A stretch of DNA of 64,000 nucleotides from an uncultured Saprospiraceae bacterium (GTDB lineage Bacteria; Bacteroidota; Bacteroidia; Chitinophagales; Saprospiraceae). The stretch is from positions 36,326-100,325 of the forward strand of contig CALFBH010000006.1 of NCBI GenBank assembly GCA_937951615.1, written 5' to 3'. A program made the position numbers and the translations under genes. Positions 9,577 to 64,000 of this stretch are shown here, one piece after another. Each line of letters opens with the position of its first letter. The first letter of the stretch is position 1. The notes beneath the pieces were generated by a model that saw only the letters and a program-made list of their open reading frames with translations, was not told the DNA's origin and made no database searches.

Positions 9577-10350
9577 ATGAAAAAAATAATCATCCAAGGC
9601 ATACAATACGACGAAAAATCATCTTACCAAAGAGGGTCGGCACTCGCGCCTCCATTAATCAGAGAAGCCTTGAATGCTGGCTCGATGAACTTGTTTGCAG
9701 AAGATGGACGCTCCATAGAAAATGCTATGGAAGACAAAGGCGATTTTGAAATTTCGGACTATTTTGACATTGAGCAAATCACAAAAAAACATCTGGATTC
9801 CAATCATAAAATTTTCACCTTGGGTGGCGATCATTCTGTCACCTTTCCCATTATAAAAGCCCATCACGAGCAATATCCAACATTAGACATCCTTCATATT
9901 GATGCCCATGCGGATTTGTATGACGATTTTGAAGGCGACAAATATTCTCATGCCTGTCCGTTTGCCAGGATCATGGAGCATAAATTTGCAGCTAGGTTAG
10001 TTCAGGTCGGCATCAGAACCCTAAACACGCACCAAGCCGAGCAAGCAGATAAATTTGGCGTGGAGATTCATCAAATGAAAGACTTGGATTTGACTCGAAT
10101 TCGGCATTTTGACAATCCTTTGTATATTTCACTTGATATGGATGCCTTTGATCCAGCTTTTGCGCCTGGCGTGTCACACCACGAACCTGGCGGATTATCT
10201 TCCCGACAAGTCATCCAATTAATTCAGAACATAGATGCAGAAGTCATCGGCGCAGACATTGTAGAGTACAATCCCAGCAGAGATGTTCAAAAAATGACTG
10301 CTTTTCTGGCGGCTAAAATGATGAAAGAAATTTTAGCAAAAATGCTATAA
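9577..10350 (+). CDS. speB: Agmatinase/arginase-family ureohydrolase
   Basis: GGDHSVTFPI, HIDAHADLYD, SLDMDAFDPAFAPGVSHHEPGG metal-binding motifs. Confidence 0.8.
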   Translation: MKKIIIQGIQYDEKSSYQRGSALAPPLIREALNAGSMNLFAEDGRSIENAMEDKGDFEISDYFDIEQITKKHLDSNHKIFTLGGDHSVTFPIIKAHHEQYPTLDILHIDAHADLYDDFEGDKYSHACPFARIMEHKFAARLVQVGIRTLNTHQAEQADKFGVEIHQMKDLDLTRIRHFDNPLYISLDMDAFDPAFAPGVSHHEPGGLSSRQVIQLIQNIDAEVIGADIVEYNPSRDVQKMTAFLAAKMMKEILAKML

Positions 10351-10390: not shown

Positions 10391-10450
10391 CTGTTTTGGC
10401 AACATTCAATTGTGCCCAGAAATTGAATGGACTGGAGACGGTCATTATAA

Positions 10451-10641
10451 TTGAAACTGCCACTGAAACTATGGCAATCGCATAAAAATATTTTTTAAAC
10501 CACTAAGGGCACTAAAGGACACGAATGAATTTTCCTTCGTGTTCTTTTTATCCTGTTAGTTTTAGTGTTCCTTAGTGGTTAGAAAATGGACACGTATTAA
10601 GACTAATTTATTTTTATGCGATTGCCATACCACTGAAACTG
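10451..10641. repeat. ACTGCC-hexamer repeat containing a nested inverted-repeat (MITE-like) element
   Basis: 21-bp perfect IR tatggcaatcgcataaaaata (10470-10490) / rc (10609-10629); inner AACCACTAAGG...CCTTAGTGGTT stem; flanking direct repeat CCACTGAAACT at 10460-10470 and 10630-10640. Confidence 0.75.
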
Positions 10642-11412
10642 CTACTGCACACTTTCCACCCACTGCGTCAGTTCCACAAAATCGGCGACAGACAAAGTTT
10701 CTGGTCGGCGTTGAAAAAACGGATCTTCCTGTAGGCGTTCGTGTTTGGTGAAGGCTTTCATACTTTTGCGCAGCATTTTCCGACGCTGACCAAAAGTGAT
10801 TTTTACAATACTGCGAAACAAGGATTCATCGCAGCCCAAGTCCTCATTGTCTCGTCGCACCAGTCGGATGACTGCCGAATCTACTTTTGGTGCTGGAATA
10901 AATTCTTCTGGACCCAGCTCAAACAAATAATCCACTTTATACCAAGCCTGTATCAGCACACTGACTACCCCGTAGGCTTTTACGCCTGGTGCAGAAGCTA
11001 CCCGCTGTGCGACTTCTTTTTGAAACATGCCGACCATTTCCGGAATCAGGGTTTTATAATCCAGTATTTTAAATAAAATCTGCGAAGAAATATTATAAGG
11101 AAAATTACCAATCACAGCAAAAGGACTGTCAAAATGCTCGGCAAAATCTGTCTTCAATACATCTTCTGCAATAATTTTATCCTGCAATTGCCAAAAATTA
11201 TCCCGAATAAACTGCACCATATCACGGTCAGCTTCTACTACTTTCAAATCATAGGATTGGTCAATCAAAAACTGAGTGAGCATACCTTTTCCAGGCCCAA
11301 TTTCCAGTACCTGGTCATATTTGTCCTGATGTGCCAGACTTTCCGCAATTCGTTTCGCTACAGCGGTATTCCTAAGAAAATGCTGCCCATAAGATTTTTT
11401 AGCTTTCAACAT
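10642..11412 (-). CDS. rsmA: 16S rRNA (adenine1518-N6/adenine1519-N6)-dimethyltransferase
   Basis: KSYGQHFLRNTAVAKRIA, EIGPGKGMLTQFL, GNFPYNISSQILFKIL. Confidence 0.95.
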   Translation of the reverse strand: MLKAKKSYGQHFLRNTAVAKRIAESLAHQDKYDQVLEIGPGKGMLTQFLIDQSYDLKVVEADRDMVQFIRDNFWQLQDKIIAEDVLKTDFAEHFDSPFAVIGNFPYNISSQILFKILDYKTLIPEMVGMFQKEVAQRVASAPGVKAYGVVSVLIQAWYKVDYLFELGPEEFIPAPKVDSAVIRLVRRDNEDLGCDESLFRSIVKITFGQRRKMLRKSMKAFTKHERLQEDPFFQRRPETLSVADFVELTQWVESVQ

Positions 11413-28475: not shown

Positions 28476-29909
28476 TTAAGTTTTGGTGAGTGTTGTTGAA
28501 ATATCTGTACGGGCAGCTTGTATAGCAGGGAGTAAGGCAGCCAAAAAACCAATGCCTAGCGCAGCGGATATCAGCAGCCATTCTTCGCGTAAAAAATGCC
28601 AGGCAGAAAAGCTATAACGATAAGCGTCTTCTAAGGTCTGAGCTAAAAAATACATACCCAAATGCCCCAGCATTAAACCAGCAATACAACCCAAAATAGC
28701 AATCAATAGCCCTTCGAGAATAATCAGTAAAAATAATCGGGAAGCACCTGCACCCATCACGCGCATGAGTGCCAGCTCGTAACGGCGTTTTCGCAAAGAA
28801 GAAAATAAAGCAATAAATATACTGAGTCCCGACACAACGATAATGACACCTGCCAATACCCGCAAAGTCATTTCCGCATTGTGCATCAAGCTATACAAAC
28901 GATTGATTTCGATAGCTGGAGTGGCAGCCTGTAAACCTTCTACTTTATTGACTTTGCGCGGCATACTGAGTGCCTGAAAGTTGCGCCCTCTGAATTTGAC
29001 GAGCAGTGCGGTGATTTCGGCGTTGTCGGGGGCGGAGTGTAGTGTGTTGATGTGTTGCGGGTTGCGGGTTGCGGGTTGCGAGTTAGGGGTTACGGGTTGT
29101 GGGTTGTTCCCTTCGTCATTCGTTATTCGGTGTTCGATATTCGATATTCCTTCGTCATGTTGCGGGTTGCGGGTTGTGGGTTGCGAGTTAGGGGTTACAG
29201 GTTGTGGGTTGTTCCCTTCGATATTCGATATTCCTTCGTCGTGTTGTGTGTTATCGTGTTGATGTCCCTCTCCTCTCTCTTCTCCTTTCCCATGTGTCAG
29301 CCAAAAACTCTGTGGTGTGGTGAGTAATAACTGGTCGATGATAGCTCCAGTAGGTTGGAGGATGCCGACGATTTTAAAAGTCGTTTCGTCGTGAGTGGCA
29401 TGATCGCTATGATCGAAACCATGTGAACTGTGAAACTGATCGCCAATTTGTAAATCGAGGGCATCGGCTACGGCTGCGCCTGCGGTGACTTCTAGATTAT
29501 TGGAATATGATTGTCCGGTGGCAATTTTTGCTTTATATAAGTTGAAAAAATCGGGTGTTGTACCGACCAGCCGGTAGCCGCGATAGCTGTCGCCGAGCGC
29601 GAGTGGAATGGCTTGTTCTATAAAAGGATGATTGGGTTTTAAATATGGGCGGACGTCGGATAAACGAATATTACCAGTAGGTGCATCTATATGATACATA
29701 CTACTCATGACGAGCTGAAGTGGGCTGCCTTTCGCGCCAATAACAAGATCAATGCCTGCCAGATTTTTTTTAAAATTATCCTGTACCTGCTTTTGTAATA
29801 AGAGCAGAAAAGTAACTAGCCCGATACCCAATGCAAAAAGCAGTACGCTGAGTAAGGTCGCCCATGGTTTGTGCAGGATGCTTTTCCAGCTTAGGTTGAA
29901 CAGGTTCAT
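28476..29909 (-). CDS. FtsX-like ABC transporter permease with repeat-derived Asn/Pro/Gln-rich linker
   Basis: N-terminal TM MNLFNLSWKSILHKPWATLLSVLLFALGIGLVTFLLLLQKQV; C-terminal FtsX TM block VIIVVSGLSIFIALFSSLRKRRYELALMRVMGAGASRLF. Confidence 0.85.
   Translation of the reverse strand: MNLFNLSWKSILHKPWATLLSVLLFALGIGLVTFLLLLQKQVQDNFKKNLAGIDLVIGAKGSPLQLVMSSMYHIDAPTGNIRLSDVRPYLKPNHPFIEQAIPLALGDSYRGYRLVGTTPDFFNLYKAKIATGQSYSNNLEVTAGAAVADALDLQIGDQFHSSHGFDHSDHATHDETTFKIVGILQPTGAIIDQLLLTTPQSFWLTHGKGEERGEGHQHDNTQHDEGISNIEGNNPQPVTPNSQPTTRNPQHDEGISNIEHRITNDEGNNPQPVTPNSQPATRNPQHINTLHSAPDNAEITALLVKFRGRNFQALSMPRKVNKVEGLQAATPAIEINRLYSLMHNAEMTLRVLAGVIIVVSGLSIFIALFSSLRKRRYELALMRVMGAGASRLFLLIILEGLLIAILGCIAGLMLGHLGMYFLAQTLEDAYRYSFSAWHFLREEWLLISAALGIGFLAALLPAIQAARTDISTTLTKT
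29051..29290 (-). repeat. In-frame repeat insertion inside the permease CDS: two direct copies of (GGGTTGC)n + (CGATATT)n plus an AGAGAG-rich tract
   Basis: Protein shows NPQPVTPNSQPTTRNPQHDEGISNIE and NPQPVTPNSQPATRNPQH; DNA shows gggttgcgggttgcgagttaggggttac[g/a]ggttgtgggttgttcccttcg twice. Confidence 0.85.
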
Positions 29910-44963: not shown

Positions 44964-45113
44964 GTCCATAGTCCATGGTCGATAGTCCATAGCTGATATT
45001 TGACAATGTGCCCACTTTTTAAGCTTCATACGCATTTTGCAAAGCAAAATGAAATACTAAAATGGCTTAAAAATTTAAAAATAGCCATCGACTATGGACC
45101 ATGGACTATCGAC
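44964..45113. repeat. Composite cassette: GTCCATAGTCCATGGTCGATAGTCCATAGCT / CATTTTGC-AAA-GCAAAATG / inverted arm
   Basis: Arms 44964-44993 and 45083-45113; central palindrome 45033-45051. Confidence 0.85.
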
Positions 45114-45274: not shown

Positions 45275-46324
45275 TTGAAAATATCTAATGAAGTAAGAGT
45301 CGCGATCCTTGCCATACTGGCGATTTTTATTTTTGTATATGGTTTTAATTACCTGAAAGGTAAAGACCTGTTTAGCCGTACAAATTATTATTACGCCATT
45401 TACGATGATGTAGGTGGGCTAGGAAAATCTGCAATTGTAACGGTCAATGGCTATAATGTTGGTTCCGTCACCAATCTGGAACTAACAGATAATCTGAAAA
45501 TTATTGTCGAACTGAGTCTGGAACACGAGCTAAGTTTGCCCAAAGATGCGGTAGTGGACATATACAGCCCCGACCCACTTAGTGGGAAAGCTGTCCGACT
45601 AGTCTATGCTGGTAAGTGTAGCAGCAATTGTGCAAAGTCTGGCGACACCCTGAAAGGTCAAACAACGGGACTAGTTGCCTCTCTGACTGGCGATATGTCG
45701 GAATCATTAAACGATGCAAAAGATGCACTTTCCGGCGCAGTATCTGCTGGACTGGATTCGCTGAACAAGAAATTTGCCAGTGAAGGCGAAGCCATTGGCG
45801 ATAGTTTCAATGACATACAAAGCATCCTGAAAAACCTGAAACGCAGTACAGGAAAACTAGACAAACTGCTAGAAGGTTCGACTGATAATATTAAAAAGAC
45901 ACTAGATAATTTACAACTTGCCACTTCTAATCTCAAAACAACCAAAGAACAATTGGATCGCGTACTGAATAATGCAGAAACATTTACCGTAAAGGTAAAC
46001 GAAATAGACCTGAAAGGCACATTGAACAAAACAATGGGCGGCGTAGATGATGCAGTTTCACAGGCAACCAATACGCTCAAGAAAGCAGACGATGCCATTG
46101 CCAGCGTAGATGACCTGATGAAAAAAGTAAAAGACGGCAGCGGCTCTATCGCCGAATTGATGAACGATGAAGCCAAATTGTACAACAACCTAAACGAAGC
46201 CACCCTGGATTTACAATTGCTGCTTCAGGATGTCCGACTCAATCCTAAACGATATATCCGCCTGTTCCGCAAAAAGTCACCAGAATATGCATTACCAGCA
46301 GACGATCCTGCGAGAGGGGAGTGA
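45275..46324 (+). CDS. MCE/MlaD family lipid-transport protein
   Basis: TTG start; N-terminal TM; YAIYDDVGGLGKSAIVTVNGYNVGSVTNLELTDN; Ala/Asp-rich coiled coil. Confidence 0.88.
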   Translation: MKISNEVRVAILAILAIFIFVYGFNYLKGKDLFSRTNYYYAIYDDVGGLGKSAIVTVNGYNVGSVTNLELTDNLKIIVELSLEHELSLPKDAVVDIYSPDPLSGKAVRLVYAGKCSSNCAKSGDTLKGQTTGLVASLTGDMSESLNDAKDALSGAVSAGLDSLNKKFASEGEAIGDSFNDIQSILKNLKRSTGKLDKLLEGSTDNIKKTLDNLQLATSNLKTTKEQLDRVLNNAETFTVKVNEIDLKGTLNKTMGGVDDAVSQATNTLKKADDAIASVDDLMKKVKDGSGSIAELMNDEAKLYNNLNEATLDLQLLLQDVRLNPKRYIRLFRKKSPEYALPADDPARGE

Positions 46325-46580
46325 TTTGGGGTATTGAGTTATTAGTGATTGGTTGATTGAGTAAGTGGAAATACAAATCCAAACGTCAAATTAAAATTCA
46401 AAAAAGTATTGACAATAAGCCAATTATGTAAATTGAAAGTGGCGTTTAGTTGAGTCCAAGCACTTAATTGGTTGATTAAGTTGCTGCCATTGCGACTGAA
46501 ACTGCCACTGCTACTAAAATTAATAATTGAAACGACTATTGAAACTAAAACTGCTATTGCGACTGATACTGCCACTGCTC
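46322..46580. repeat. Tandem assortment of three repeat families (TGATTGG, AAATAC/CAAATT, ACTGCC hexamer) spanning the gap and entering the next CDS
   Basis: tgatttggggtattgagttattagtgattggttgattg; gtggaaatacaaatccaaacgtcaaatt; gcgactgaaactgccactgctact...attgcgactgatactgccactgctc. Confidence 0.8.
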
Positions 46581-48425
46581 GTCACCCCATTCTTCGCTGT
46601 GGCGCAAATCGGTCTCCCAGAAGCACCGCCACCCGACACCACAGGCAAGCGAGTGAAAATAGAAAACGCAAAAGTCGTGCAATGGGTCAGAGATGGCGAT
46701 GATGTGCAGGAACAACTAGTGGGCGATGTCGTCCTGTTTCACAAAGGCACACACATGTATTGCGACAGTGCGGTAATGACTAAAGATATTGCTCGGGCTT
46801 ATGGCAATGTCGTGATTGAACAAGACTCCCTCACCATATACGCCAATGCCTTAAGATATGCAGTCGATACCCGAAAAGCCACTTTCTACGATGAAGTCGT
46901 GATGGACAATGGAGATCAACGGCTCTTTACCGACAAACTAGACTACGATATAGATACCGAAATTGCAGAATACCATGAGGGCGCGAAGCTGGAAAGCGAA
47001 AACCTCAATATCAGTAGTCAGCACGGCTATTATCATTCCGAAACAGGGCAAGCTTACTTCAAAGGCGAAGTTGTGGTCGTCGATTCCAATTTTACCCTAC
47101 AGGCAGATACCCTGCATTACGATACCGAAAAAGAAATGTCCTACTTCCACGGCCCGACGGATATCGAAACTGAAACCGATAAAATATATTGTGAAGCTGG
47201 TTTTTACGATGCCAAAAACCAATATGCAGAGTTTGAAAAAAATGTACGGTTCAAAGGCGAAAACCGGGACGCCACAGCTGATAAGATTATTTACGATGGC
47301 GAAACGGGCAAAACCTATTTTGAAGGAAAAACCAATTTTCAGGACGAGAACCGAACCATCATAGCAGACGATTCGGGCTATGATGCTGACCAGCAAATAT
47401 CCAAATTTAGAGGCAGCGTACAAATTGCCGATTCTGTGCAGACGATTTATGCGGATAGCGTATATTATTACGAAGAAGAGGAATTTACAAGGGCCTGGGG
47501 TTATGTGGTGGTAGAAAGCGGCGACCAGACCATCTGGGCAGACAGCCTGAAATTCGACCAGGCAACGTCTTCTGGCAAAGCCTGGGGAAATGTGGTCATC
47601 AAAGACAGCACACAACACGTCTGGGCAGATCGCGCAGATTACAGACAAACCGACCGTTCCGGCACAGCAGAAGGGGATGTCCTGCTCATCAATCACGAAC
47701 AAGAAATCATTATAGACTGCGAGCGAGCAGTTTTTAATGACAGCACCTCCTATATCCATGCTACGGGGCGACCGCTCATGCGCTCTCTGGTCAGTGGCGA
47801 CACCTTATACCTCGCTGCCGATACGCTCTTATCCTTCAAGCCCGATATCAATAAAGACGAACGAACTTTGATTGCTAATAATAATGTCCGGATTTCCAAA
47901 AGCGACTTCCAGGCAGTCAGCGATTCGCTCATTTATTCCTCAGAAGATTCAGTTTTTCGTTTTTATAAAATAGACAACCATCCGGTCGTCTGGTCAGATA
48001 CCAGCCAGTTTTCGGCGGATACCATTTTCATTTTTCAAAAGAATGAAGAGATGGATAAAATTGACCTAATCCACAAGGCATTTATCATCAATGAAATGGA
48101 CTCCACGTTCTACAACCAAATCAAAGGCAAAGACATATTTGTCCGCTTCAAAAATAATGAAGTCCGCAAAATGGATGTCAAAGGCAATGGTGAAACCATT
48201 TACTACATCCGCGACGACGGAGGTGCCTATACAGGTGTCAATCAGACCGAATGCAGCGATATGCTCATCAATTTTGGAGATAATGAGGTGAAACAAATCT
48301 ACTTCTACCGACAACCGAAAGCCACCATATTCCCCATGAAACAAATCAACCACCAAACCCTCCGACTAGAAAATTTTGAATGGCTGGATACGTTGCGACC
48401 GGACTCGCCTTATGATGTGCGGTAG
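46527..48425 (+). CDS. OstA/LptA-like organic solvent tolerance protein
   Basis: TTG start forced by TAA at 46524; signal peptide MKRLLKLKLLLRLILPLLVTPFFAVAQ; repeated ADxxxYD...A.F.G.V OstA strands. Confidence 0.82.
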   Translation: MKRLLKLKLLLRLILPLLVTPFFAVAQIGLPEAPPPDTTGKRVKIENAKVVQWVRDGDDVQEQLVGDVVLFHKGTHMYCDSAVMTKDIARAYGNVVIEQDSLTIYANALRYAVDTRKATFYDEVVMDNGDQRLFTDKLDYDIDTEIAEYHEGAKLESENLNISSQHGYYHSETGQAYFKGEVVVVDSNFTLQADTLHYDTEKEMSYFHGPTDIETETDKIYCEAGFYDAKNQYAEFEKNVRFKGENRDATADKIIYDGETGKTYFEGKTNFQDENRTIIADDSGYDADQQISKFRGSVQIADSVQTIYADSVYYYEEEEFTRAWGYVVVESGDQTIWADSLKFDQATSSGKAWGNVVIKDSTQHVWADRADYRQTDRSGTAEGDVLLINHEQEIIIDCERAVFNDSTSYIHATGRPLMRSLVSGDTLYLAADTLLSFKPDINKDERTLIANNNVRISKSDFQAVSDSLIYSSEDSVFRFYKIDNHPVVWSDTSQFSADTIFIFQKNEEMDKIDLIHKAFIINEMDSTFYNQIKGKDIFVRFKNNEVRKMDVKGNGETIYYIRDDGGAYTGVNQTECSDMLINFGDNEVKQIYFYRQPKATIFPMKQINHQTLRLENFEWLDTLRPDSPYDVR

Positions 48426-49449: not shown

Positions 49450-52400
49450 ATGTCCGAACCTAAAGATTCCGCAGTAAAAAAAATAGTAGACTTACGCAAT
49501 AAGAACAAGCGTGAGGCAGATTTGTCCAATTATGTATTTGGCAAACTACCGCCCCAGGCCCGCGCCTTGGAGGAAGCCACGCTTGGTGCCATCATGCTCG
49601 ACAAAGATGCACTGACCGTTGTGATTGATACCCTGCGTCCGGATAGTTTTTATAGCGATGCCCACCAACTCATCTATAAAGCGATGCTCAGTTTGTTTGA
49701 GCGCACGCAGCCCATTGATTTGCTGACTGTTTCTGAGGAGTTGAAGAAAACTGGTGATTTGGAAAAAATTGGCGGTCCTTATTATTTAGTAGAACTGACC
49801 AATCGGGTAGCCTCTTCTGCCAACCTGGAATTTCATGCCCGTATTGTTGCACAGAAGTATATTCAGCGCGAATTGATTCGAGTTTCAAATGGCGTCATTA
49901 AAGATGCTTACGAAGACACGACCGATGTATTTGAATTATTGGACAAAGCCGAGCAGGGCTTATTTGAAATTACAGAAAAAAACCTCAGTCGTTCCTATGC
50001 CAGCATGAGTTCTTTATTGGGACAAGCCGTCAAGCAAGTCGAAGAAGCCTCTGAAACGGGTGAAGGATTGACAGGTGTTCCCACTGGCTTTATTGATTTA
50101 GATCGTATGACTTCGGGTTGGCAACCTTCTGATTTAGTGATAGTTGCGGCACGTCCGGGTATGGGTAAATGTCTGGGAAAAGGAACGAAGATTGTGATGT
50201 ATGATGGCACATTGAAAAATGTGGAGGATGTAGTTGTAGGAGATTTGCTAATGGGCGATGATTCTGCGCCTCGTACTGTTTTGTCCTTAGCAAGAGGAAG
50301 AGAAACGATGTATTGGGTACGCCAAAACAAAGGCATTGATTATCGTGTAAACGAAAGTCATATTCTTTCTTTGAAACGTAGTCGCAGAGAAGGTGGACAC
50401 GAGAAGGGGGCTGTTTTAAATATTACTGTGAAAGATTATTTATCTAAGTCCAATAAGTTTCAATCCAATTATAAAGGATATCGGGTAGCCGTTGAGTTTG
50501 AAGAAAAACCACTTGACCTTGCGCCTTATTTTGTTGGCTTGTGGCTGGGGGATGGGACTTCGGCAGCATCTACGATTACTACGCAGGATGAAGAGGTTAT
50601 TGATTACCTCCAAACTTATGCGAATGAGTTGGGTTTGCGTTTACATGAACAATCTTATGAAAACCGTTGTAATAATTATAGCATATCTGGGACTACATTT
50701 GTAGAAATGCGAACACAATCTCCCAAAATAAAACTACGCCATCTTAATCTTATTGACAATAAACATATTCCGCAGGATTATCTGATTAATTCTACTAAGA
50801 ATCGTCTGAAATTATTAGCTGGACTGATTGATAGTGATGGACACTATCTGGTACAATCTAATGGCTATGAAATTGTACAAAAAAATGAATACTTAAGCCG
50901 CCAAATTAAATTTCTTTGTGATTCACTTGGTTTTAGAACTTCCTTTAAAAAGAAAAAAGCTACAATAGCTTCTATTGGTTATGAAACAGAGGTGTATCGC
51001 TTAAGAATTTATGGAAATATTGACACGATACCCGTAAAGATAGAACGCAAAAAAGCCAATCCATGGGGAAGCCCAATAGACTGGCATGTAACAGGTATTC
51101 AGTTGGAAAACGACGGTGTAGGAGATTATTACGGTTTTGAAATTGATGGAAATCGCTTGTTCTTGCTGGAAGATATGACCGTAACGCATAATACCGCGTT
51201 TACGCTCGCCCTAGCCGCCAATGCCGCCAGTTTCGACAAACCAGTCGCCTTTTTCTCTTTGGAGATGTCGAGTATTCAATTGGTCAAAAGACTGATTTCT
51301 TATGAGACGGAAATTCCTGGTGAAAAGCTGAAAAAAGGTACGCTGGAAGACTACGAATGGCAACAACTCAATGCTGCCGTAGAAAAAATGAGCGAGAAAA
51401 AAATCTTTATTGACGATACACCTGCCATCAATATTTTTGAACTCCGTGCCAAGTGCCGACGCCTTAAAATGCAACACGATATTCAGATGGTGATGATTGA
51501 TTATCTCCAACTGATGTCGGGCAACATGGACAAAAATAAAAGTACCAACCGTGAGCAGGAAATCAGTTCTATTTCACGGGCTTTGAAAGGTTTGGCGAAG
51601 GAATTGAATATTCCGGTCATTGCACTTTCGCAGCTGAGTCGTGCGGTGGAGACGAGGGGAGGAACGAAGCGTCCGATGTTGTCGGATTTGCGGGAATGTA
51701 TTATTGGGGAAACCAAAATCTATATAGCAGACACAGGAGCGTACAAACGAGTAGATGAGTTGATTGGTCAAAATGGTTTCAATGTGTTGGCTATGGATGA
51801 CGAGTATATGTTGACAGAGGCAGAATGCCTCGATGTTTGGGCTACAGGTGAAAAAGAAGTCTATGAAGTAAGGACACAATCGGGTAATAAAATTACAGCA
51901 AGTCTGAATCATCCATTTTTTACGACTTTAGGTTGGCAGCAATTGGTGGATATAAAAGAAGGGGATTTTGTGGCAACACCAAGAACCATTCATTATAATA
52001 AACCAAGCGAGTTAAAAGACGAGGAAATTATTCTATTGGGACACATGATAGGTGATGGCTGTTATGTAAAACGCCAGCCGGTTCATTATACGAGTCAGGA
52101 TGAAGCATCATTAGATATTGTTTCAGAATCTGCCCAAGATTTGTGGAACATTCAACCACGAAAGGTTAAAGATGCAAGCTCAAATTGCCATCATATTTAT
52201 TTGCCTTCTCCTTATCATCTAACACACGGTGTAAGACATCCTTTTACCAATTTATTACATAAAGTAGGTTTAAAACAAGCACGTTCTCACGAAAAAGAGT
52301 TGCCCAAAACAATTTTCCAAAGTAGCCTTGAGCAGGTAGCTTTATTCATAAAACATCTATGGGCTACAGATGGTGGAATTTATATTAGAAAAGGAAAAGG

Positions 52401-53280
52401 AGCTTCTAAAATACATTATGCTTCTAATTCTTATGAACTGATAAAAGGTTTAAAATCCTTATTGTTGCGATTTGAAATTTCAAGTTCTATTCAAAAAACA
52501 CAAAAGGAAAATTATCGTCCGGGATACCATTTGAATATTACCGGAAAGGGAAATATTCTTCGTTTTGGAGCATCTATTGGCATATTCGGTAGTAAAGCAG
52601 TTCAATTAGAAAAATTAGTTGCGCTTTATCAGGACAAGACCTCGAATCCAAATGTTGATGTTATATCAAAACAAGTTTGGGATGAAATCAAAGTCTTGAA
52701 AAAGGAAAAAGGATTCACAGAGCGTAGTTTTCAAAAAGAATTGGGGACGCAGTATTCTGGAAGCTCGCTTTACAAGAGCAATTTGTCCAGACAACGATTA
52801 GCAAAAATTGCAGATATTCTGGAATCAGAAGAATTAAATTATTTGGCAAACAGCGACATCAAATGGGATAAGATCATCTCCATCAAACACATTGGAAAGG
52901 AAATGACTTATGATCTGCATGTTGCTGATTATCATAATTTTGTTGCCAACGATTTTATTATTCACAACTCAGGAGCCATAGAACAAGATGCAGATATGGT
53001 CACCTTCATCTATCGACCAGAATATTATCAGATTTTGGAAGACGAGGAGGGCAATTCGCTCAAAGGTAAAGCGGAGGTCATTATTGCAAAACACAGAAAT
53101 GGTGCTTTGGGTACAGTTGATTTACGATTTACTGGCGAGACGGCAAAATTCTCCAATTGGGCTGATGCTGGATTTGACGATTTTTCAGCTGCACCAACTG
53201 GCAATACAGACAGCCCAATGTCCAATATCATCACCCGTCCATCTAAGATGAATGACGGTTTTGATGATGTGCCGTTTTAA
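49450..53280 (+). CDS. dnaB: Replicative DNA helicase DnaB carrying two inteins (extein about 511 aa)
   Basis: LPPQARALEEATLGAIMLDKDAL; ARPGMGK|TAFTLALAANAA; DYLQLMSG; LSQLSRAVETRGGTKRPMLSDLRE|SGAIEQDADMVTFIYRPEYY. Confidence 0.95.
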   Translation: MSEPKDSAVKKIVDLRNKNKREADLSNYVFGKLPPQARALEEATLGAIMLDKDALTVVIDTLRPDSFYSDAHQLIYKAMLSLFERTQPIDLLTVSEELKKTGDLEKIGGPYYLVELTNRVASSANLEFHARIVAQKYIQRELIRVSNGVIKDAYEDTTDVFELLDKAEQGLFEITEKNLSRSYASMSSLLGQAVKQVEEASETGEGLTGVPTGFIDLDRMTSGWQPSDLVIVAARPGMGKCLGKGTKIVMYDGTLKNVEDVVVGDLLMGDDSAPRTVLSLARGRETMYWVRQNKGIDYRVNESHILSLKRSRREGGHEKGAVLNITVKDYLSKSNKFQSNYKGYRVAVEFEEKPLDLAPYFVGLWLGDGTSAASTITTQDEEVIDYLQTYANELGLRLHEQSYENRCNNYSISGTTFVEMRTQSPKIKLRHLNLIDNKHIPQDYLINSTKNRLKLLAGLIDSDGHYLVQSNGYEIVQKNEYLSRQIKFLCDSLGFRTSFKKKKATIASIGYETEVYRLRIYGNIDTIPVKIERKKANPWGSPIDWHVTGIQLENDGVGDYYGFEIDGNRLFLLEDMTVTHNTAFTLALAANAASFDKPVAFFSLEMSSIQLVKRLISYETEIPGEKLKKGTLEDYEWQQLNAAVEKMSEKKIFIDDTPAINIFELRAKCRRLKMQHDIQMVMIDYLQLMSGNMDKNKSTNREQEISSISRALKGLAKELNIPVIALSQLSRAVETRGGTKRPMLSDLRECIIGETKIYIADTGAYKRVDELIGQNGFNVLAMDDEYMLTEAECLDVWATGEKEVYEVRTQSGNKITASLNHPFFTTLGWQQLVDIKEGDFVATPRTIHYNKPSELKDEEIILLGHMIGDGCYVKRQPVHYTSQDEASLDIVSESAQDLWNIQPRKVKDASSNCHHIYLPSPYHLTHGVRHPFTNLLHKVGLKQARSHEKELPKTIFQSSLEQVALFIKHLWATDGGIYIRKGKGASKIHYASNSYELIKGLKSLLLRFEISSSIQKTQKENYRPGYHLNITGKGNILRFGASIGIFGSKAVQLEKLVALYQDKTSNPNVDVISKQVWDEIKVLKKEKGFTERSFQKELGTQYSGSSLYKSNLSRQRLAKIADILESEELNYLANSDIKWDKIISIKHIGKEMTYDLHVADYHNFVANDFIIHNSGAIEQDADMVTFIYRPEYYQILEDEEGNSLKGKAEVIIAKHRNGALGTVDLRFTGETAKFSNWADAGFDDFSAAPTGNTDSPMSNIITRPSKMNDGFDDVPF
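50170..51192 (+). mobile_element. DnaB intein 1 (341 aa), inserted within Walker A between GK and T; LAGLIDADG endonuclease
   Basis: Starts CLGKGTKIVMYDGT, ends DMTVTHN|T; DOD motifs FVGLWLGDG and LAGLIDSDG. Confidence 0.93.
51697..52968 (+). mobile_element. DnaB intein 2 (424 aa), inserted in MLSDLRE|SGAIEQ; LAGLIDADG-like endonuclease
   Basis: Starts CIIGETKIYIADTG; block B GNKITASLNHPFFTTLGW; ILLGHMIGDG and FIKHLWATDGG; ends NFVANDFIIHN|S. Confidence 0.93.
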
Positions 53281-61773: not shown

Positions 61774-61850
61774 CAGTTACCAGTTACCAGTTACCAGTTA
61801 CCAGTTACCAGTTACCAGTTACCAGTTACCAGTTACCAGTTACCAGTTAC
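61774..61850. repeat. Perfect heptanucleotide microsatellite (CAGTTAC)11
   Basis: 11 uninterrupted units counted directly, 6 nt 3' of the parE stop. Confidence 0.97.
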
Positions 61851-61856
61851 CAATCA

Positions 61857-63826: not shown

Positions 63827-64000
63827 TAGTTGGGTCGATGGTCGATGGTCCATAGTCCATAGACTAGACATAAAGAGCATTTAGTCGAGTGCCGAAAGGC
63901 ACTCGACCATCGACCATCGACCATCGACCATCGACCATCGACCATCGACCATCGACCATCGACCATCGACCATCGACCATCGACCATCGACCATCGACCA
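63827..64000. repeat. GATGGTC cassette: forward heptamer arm, GAA-core hairpin TCGAGTGCCGAAAGGCACTCGA, then (CGACCAT)n of at least 13 units running off the window
   Basis: Direct reading; forward arm 63827-63860, hairpin 63885-63906, array from 63904. Confidence 0.95.

Follow-up and report, generated by a model that had tools for sequence, protein, structure and literature searches.

A probable dispersed-repeat origin for the signal peptide of an OstA-like protein in an uncultured Saprospiraceae bacterium

Introduction

Signal peptides accept diverse sequence, and few natural ones can be traced to the DNA from which they came. The question of such a source is raised by the 5' end of ostA, a gene for an OstA/LptA-like protein in the genome of an uncultured Saprospiraceae bacterium (G000), which we read here in the window, a 64-kb stretch of that genome. 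A first-pass annotation of the window had proposed that the signal peptide of this protein was derived from a hexanucleotide repeat that is non-coding elsewhere. Is the start of the gene made of repeat DNA, how much of the export signal does the repeat account for, and did the repeat come to the gene or spread from it?

Results

A hexamer array runs into the ostA coding sequence

The Pfam OstA_2 and LptD_N matches of the ostA product are both above cut-off (Table 1). Because the match to the NCBIfam LptA equivalog (1.9e-16) scores 60.2 against a curated cut-off of 71.7, and so falls below it, the protein is OstA-like rather than LptA proper. It is the single OstA homologue found in the G000 genome and, going by family and copy number, is presumably essential. 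By inspection, MKRLLKLKLLLRLILPLLVTPFFAVA↓Q (arrow, predicted cleavage) looks like a Sec/SPase I signal, with a charged n-region, a hydrophobic h-region and an AxA site. On these features it is a putative functional export signal, and the protein would be exported.

A degenerate ACTGNN array occupies positions 46483-46580 of the window and continues unbroken from non-coding DNA across the start codon to codon 18. It is a single array of A[CT]TGNN units with one 1-base phase shift, and reads GCTGCC ATTGCG ACTGAA ACTGCC ACTGCT ACTAAA ATTAAT A ATTGAA ACGACT ATTGAA ACTAAA ACTGCT ATTGCG ACTGAT ACTGCC ACTGCT. The array has a chain score of 19. Dinucleotide-type shuffles average 2.8 ± 1.0 and never reach 19 in 5,000 trials, nor does any of 2,040 random 100-nt segments of the G000 genome. 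For the coding part by itself the score is 11 (null 2.6 ± 0.9). In the spacer upstream of the array, a stretch at about 46364-46410, GGAAATACAAATCCAAACG.CAAAT, was seen by eye to occur again at about 10353.

Table 1. Features at the ostA locus and related repeat stretches, numbered from the first letter of the window.
Feature	Position	Strand	Remarks
mlaD-like gene	45275..46324	+	TTG start as listed; Pfam MlaD 4.4e-12; mlaD-ostA order also in the sister species G001
mlaD-ostA spacer	46325..46482	+	sequence comparison by eye
Non-coding part of ACTGNN array	46483..46526	+	last triplet is the in-frame TAA 46524-46526
Coding part of ACTGNN array, ostA codons 1-18 (MKRLLKLKLLLRLILPLL)	46527..46580	+	start, n-region, most of h-region
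Candidate start TTG	46527..46529	+	within ATTGAA unit; context score 5.6, top 1.4% of window TTGs
Alternative start TTG	46539..46541	+	within ATTGAA unit; context score 6.3, top 1.1% of window TTGs
c-region VTPFFAVA	46581..46604	+	predicted cleavage AVA↓Q after 46604; A26, Q27 invariant in five congeners
Mature OstA/LptA-like protein and stop codon	46605..48425	+	Pfam OstA_2 5.5e-45, LptD_N 5.4e-23
Non-coding ACTGNN array, same family	10450..10471	+	ORFs end at 10350, begin at 10642
Second ACTGNN stretch	10630..10649	+	10642-10649 inside 3' end of minus-strand ORF 10642-11412

The array belongs to a family expanded in one species

Four tandem ACTGNN units, allowing up to two mismatches, occur at 327 places in G000, against 24 for the reversed control. 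With at most one mismatch the count is 204, against 10 or fewer in each of 60 relatives, five of them of the same genus; among these relatives, the family is expanded in the species of G000 only. Although ORFs make up 87% of the sampled sequence, 51 of the 64 sampled arrays lie outside them, in a sample of about 2.0 of 7.0 Mb that is biased in array density and intergenic share because many early stretches were picked for holding arrays. The few arrays within other ORFs are mostly on the opposite strand and code for Ser/Asn-rich, linker-like stretches. The family is thus multicopy and mostly intergenic, with period-6 units A[CT]TGNN, and on these features the ostA array is one of its members. 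The description of the ACTGCC repeat as purely non-coding at 10451-10470 and 10630-10641 is borne out, both stretches lying outside the flanking ORFs.

Several other repeats were seen along the way. Between the two ACTGNN stretches, window positions 10470-10633 hold an element bounded by inverted ends (ATGGCAATCGCATAAAAATA...TATTTTTATGCGATTGCCAT) that looks like an insertion into the array. ACTGNN arrays often form divergent pairs, (CAGTNN)n followed by (ACTGNN)n, tens of bases apart or less (for example G000:C42:106416-106508 and C4:115132-115212). In G000 contigs C77, C110 and C10 (L114, L113 and L099), hexamer or heptamer repeats code for linker-like stretches (SSSGSGSG, NHQSPITNHQSPVT) within long ORFs. 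The window also carries heptanucleotide arrays of GTTGCGG, ATTCGAT, GTCCATA, CAGTTAC (11 units) and TCGACCA (14 units), with array positions at 29054-29211, 44964-45113, 61774-61852 and 63903-64000. Finally, the control motif GTCANN, in four tandem units, is found at 148 places in the relative G022, which is of the same family as G000 and appears to own a hexamer array with a different tetramer.

The closest described counterparts are the TAACTGA heptamer arrays of Beggiatoaceae, Cyanobacteria and Bacteroidetes, which are likewise short intergenic direct repeats, occasionally found in ORFs (PMC4679880). TAACTGA, however, is an exact 7-nt unit with stops in all forward frames, whereas ACTGNN has 6 nt with two variable positions. 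The ACTGNN array is open at ostA and so is translatable, unlike the stop-bearing heptamer. We rejected an assignment of the ostA array to the heptamer family on its period of 6 and its two variable positions. In other bacteria, TAACTGA arrays are frequently placed shortly before start codons (PMC4679880), and translation control or protein binding has been proposed as the role of these heptamers. The ostA array might likewise be a regulatory element, kept in place for such a role, with incidental coding overlap. The mostly intergenic placement of ACTGNN arrays, and the position of both candidate TTG codons inside array units, would fit such a role. However, the sampled arrays lie on both strands with no common placement before starts (listing read by eye), the ostA array has no special RNA fold (z = -1.4), and unrelated repeats hold the same place in congeners, as described below. 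We consider a regulatory element unlikely.

Codon choice exceeds what the peptide imposes

A signal peptide rich in Leu may look like a CTG repeat by its composition, so we kept the ostA signal peptide constant and redrew its codons by genome usage. The ACTG score of the actual codons, 27, was reached by 0.027% of the synonymous draws (null 18.9 ± 2.1; P = 3e-4). Across 1,350 sampled ORF 5' ends, that of ostA has a score of 28, against a runner-up of 24 and a mean of 14.8. The array likeness of the signal codons is greater than the peptide imposes, and chance is unlikely to account for it, though the synonymous test concerns one locus.

These results weigh on the view that nothing here is repeat-born, and that an ancestral Leu-rich signal happens to use CTG, CTA and TTG with A-ending partner codons beside a non-coding array. 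Signal peptides are Leu-rich, hence CTG-repeat-like by nature, and a weak alignment can be made with the sister species (RLVFLFLCLLPF versus RLILPLLV-TPF; shuffle P = 0.07-0.15). Against this stand the rarity of such a score among synonymous draws, the outlying position of ostA among ORF 5' ends, and the direct continuity of the array from the non-coding side, which together make a coincidence of codons quite improbable.

The sister species has a different signal

Orthologues of ostA were found in four congeners, all draft MAGs, at 75, 64, 62 and 62% identity; the related-locus search returned no named ostA orthologues. In the sister species (G001), whose mature part is 75% identical to that of G000, there is no array, and the signal peptide is a different one, ...EEHLIRLVFLFLCLLPFTLKA↓Q. 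The G000 and G001 signal peptides align with a score of 30, against 22.6 ± 4.4 for shuffles (P = 0.07). As a control, the signal peptide of the neighbouring lptD is clearly homologous between the same two genomes (77 versus 18 ± 4 for shuffles). When the N-terminal 157 residues of the five congeners are aligned, every residue between M and A26 varies, and invariance begins with A26 and Q27, the pair that flanks the predicted cleavage site (-1 and +1).

Thus the repeat-free sister does not have the Leu-alternating signal peptide, and the other congeners differ again. With the array excess and the species-limited expansion, the sister's different peptide supports the first-pass proposal that the signal derives from the repeat. 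In extent the proposal needs trimming: array units cover codons 1-18, which comprise the start codon, the n-region and the larger part of the h-region, and leave out the c-region VTPFFAVA↓Q. Because the ACTGNN expansion is confined to the species of G000, the repeat-coded signal is most simply the derived state. We infer that the array reached the gene once the two sister species had split, and was not lost from G001. Part of the G000 h-region might go back to a short ancestral stretch (R-L...P-F), given the shuffle P of 0.07-0.15 against the sister.

The direction of copying could also be reversed, with ostA as one founder of the family: Leu codons of the form ...ACTG... in the ancestral gene would have been copied outwards by slippage. 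The sister does have one aagACTGgtc at the matching place. However, most G000 arrays are intergenic, and the non-coding half of the array at ostA bears the common family units ACTGAA, ACTGCC and ACTGCT, so that we judge seeding from the gene to be very improbable.

Every standard start translates the repeat

We confirmed the first-pass reading of the sequence, with TAA at 46524-46526 followed by TTG at 46527. The accompanying claim that the TAA forces this TTG is right in that the TAA sets the upstream limit, but it goes too far in fixing the codon, since the context of TTG 46539 is equally good (6.3 versus 5.6; confident ATG starts score 4.2 ± 3.9 and background TTGs -4.4 ± 4.3). A further TTG at 46557 has a poor context. 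Initiation at GTG 46599, the next candidate downstream, would give a protein with no signal peptide, and between the array and the cleavage site there is no standard start that does preserve one. Translation probably begins at TTG 46527 or TTG 46539, and the repeat-coded hydrophobic core is translated from every standard start that ostA could use to make a signal peptide. Non-ATG starts may occur in G000: among the 935 sampled ORFs of 250 aa or more, 62 have a non-ATG start and no ATG in their first 40 codons.

Although the gene offers no ATG and the congener genomes are drafts, a true start elsewhere or a misassembled locus, either of which would leave the repeat untranslated, is extremely improbable given the in-frame TAA, the loss of the signal from GTG 46599, the position of the locus within a 100-kb contig, and the repeats that two congeners independently show in the same translated region.

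Other repeats occupy the same place in two congeners

In G003, the ostA codons for TYKVSKNLIGL, inside the signal peptide, are the palindrome AACCTATAAGGTTTnnnnAAACCTTATAGGTT, which we call PAL1. PAL1 has 14 copies in G003, 80 in G005 and 33 in G004, and none in G000 or G001; the reversed control has none. From PAL1 to the cleavage site, G003 ostA contains no ATG, GTG or TTG.

A 74-nt perfect palindrome in G005 contains both the start ATG and the n-region MHVTHVETQNFASLRASRALQF. It lies about 60 bases behind a REP-associated tyrosine transposase-like gene, whose match to the RAYT model (1.1e-16; 61 against a cut-off of 80 bits) is below cut-off, as is its Y1_Tnp match. The core of the palindrome, GTAGAGACGC...GCGTCTCTAC, is a REP-like sequence of GTAG type present in 6 copies. 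Five of the six copies have the core extended by a perfect palindrome of 15-26 nt that differs by locus (L010, L129, L131, L132 and L167 carry such extensions), suggesting an inverted-duplication mechanism. The arms are locus-specific, and therefore the second arm, part of the signal peptide, would be an inverted copy of its own upstream flank.

By comparison, the best inverted repeats around the ORF start in 23 ostA orthologues of other genera have arms of at most 8, versus 15 and 37 here. Signal-peptide codons thus lie inside a copy of a dispersed repeat in G000, G003 and G005, and in the latter two the ostA signal appears to have been built from two further families of unrelated repeats. 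Although the signal peptides differ, the genomes keep the AxA↓Q site of cleavage and the mature protein.

Repeat-made signals are not universal in the genus: the signal regions of G004 and G001, two of the five gene-bearing congeners, were not multicopy repeats when tested. The G004 signal peptide aligns with that of G005 (44 versus 20 ± 4.3; P < 5e-4), and the two could possibly be decayed products of a shared palindrome/RAYT event.

Two further observations concern neighbouring or comparable sequence. Downstream of ostA, window positions 49450-53280 hold a DnaB-like helicase ORF of 1,276 aa with, on reading, seemingly two intein-like insertions; the same slot has a dnaB-like ORF of 1,257 aa in G005 and one of 512 aa in G001. 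On G000 contig C7, a 453-aa ORF on the minus strand contains a 30-nt perfect palindrome, CATTTACAGCTTGTAAACAAGCTGTAAATG, that encodes the lipobox region FTACKQAVNV of a predicted lipoprotein.

PAL1 at other N termini

Among the matches listed, PAL1 is present in many Bacteroidota. Being palindromic, it is the same in both orientations, and its sole open frame is TYKV[SF][KRE]NLIG. In 19 of 148 distinct copies among the matches listed, it falls within an ORF, or precedes one, that continues for 110 aa or more. This frame forms the N termini of at least three further predicted exported proteins, the clear cases of a predicted export signal being an FG-GAP/ASPIC lipoprotein common to three genomes (L168, L199, L268), a DUF5686 protein (L170) and a PAP2-type lipoprotein (L205). 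A YCF48-like protein (L193) and an LptC-related protein of a Cytophagales MAG (L218) are weaker cases. Six others (L191, L198, L201, L202, L207 and L239) were set aside on account of a later start codon, with which the repeat is probably 5' untranslated. The enrichment of PAL1 in export signals is suggestive rather than proven, because stops in the other frames explain the identity of the frame and because signal peptides are the easiest N termini to recognise. Two MAGs, one of Cytophagales and one of Chitinophagaceae (L265, L266), also share an in-frame PAL1 at one position of an ORF that reads as methylase-like. A literature search for the PAL1 sequence found no description of it.

Discussion

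Our analysis makes it probable that the 5' end of ostA in G000 was rebuilt from a dispersed, otherwise mostly intergenic ACTGNN repeat, giving a usable Sec signal that exports the OstA/LptA-like protein. In the model we propose, the ACTGNN array multiplied in the species of G000, would have reached the mlaD-ostA spacer and now extends into the gene. The six-base period would preserve the frame, so that the array reads as (CTG/CTA/TTG-NNA)n, mostly Leu-X dipeptides, with Lys or Arg at the amino end, and one ATTGAA unit would supply the TTG start in an A-rich context. Joined to the ancestral AxA↓Q region, the repeat-coded n- and h-regions would form a usable Sec signal peptide, and the protein would be exported to the periplasm for LPS transport. 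Selection may keep only generic properties, namely a start, positive charge, a hydrophobic run and AxA, so repeat DNA could be swapped in. How the repeats spread is likewise part of our reconstruction.

There are precedents for parts of this model. In Yersinia, part of the signal peptide of YPO1552 has been proposed to be made by the RU-2 MITE (Delihas 2007, PMC2759123; reviewed in PMC2229807). As at ostA, a small dispersed repeat there supplies the first ~30 codons of a predicted exported protein, including part of the signal peptide. However, YPO1552 is a small protein that its author proposes as new, whereas ostA is a gene of a conserved LPS-transport family with orthologues across the order. 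The source at ostA is also a degenerate tandem hexamer array, with two further repeat families in congeners.

Rickettsia palindromic elements (RPEs) resemble the ostA repeats as dispersed repeats in frame within protein-coding genes (PMC10969869), but they are ~150 bp long and sit in unrelated metabolic genes, whereas the cases here are mostly N-terminal export signals and linkers, and the focal ACTGNN repeat is not palindromic. Intragenic GTAG/CGTC REPs, some of them NH2-terminal, are known from several phyla, and many of the N-terminal ones have been suggested to be annotation errors (PMC3733652). The G005 core shares with them the initial GTAG tag and the adjoining RAYT-like gene, with 6 copies only. 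It differs in that the start codon itself lies in the palindrome, with no later start that leaves a signal peptide, and in that the arms beyond the core vary by locus.

As far as our literature searches reach, a degenerate tandem hexamer as the source of a signal, and the recurrence of such events at one conserved gene with different repeats, are new. We are evenly divided on a broader reading, in which the ostA 5' end is a hot spot, with at least three signal replacements by three unrelated repeat families within one Saprospiraceae genus, and in which PAL1, widespread in Bacteroidota, is a recurrent ready-made n-/h-region start for exported proteins.

Taken together, these observations suggest that 'junk' repeats can readily become working protein in export signals. 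On the broader reading, signal peptides would be a general entry point into protein for repeats that are selfish or neutral. Translated repeats can also mislead the annotation of start codons and signal peptides in repeat-rich Bacteroidota. With apparently separate rebuilds in neighbouring species, ostA makes the origin of signal peptides, and the minimum that is conserved in them, directly testable.
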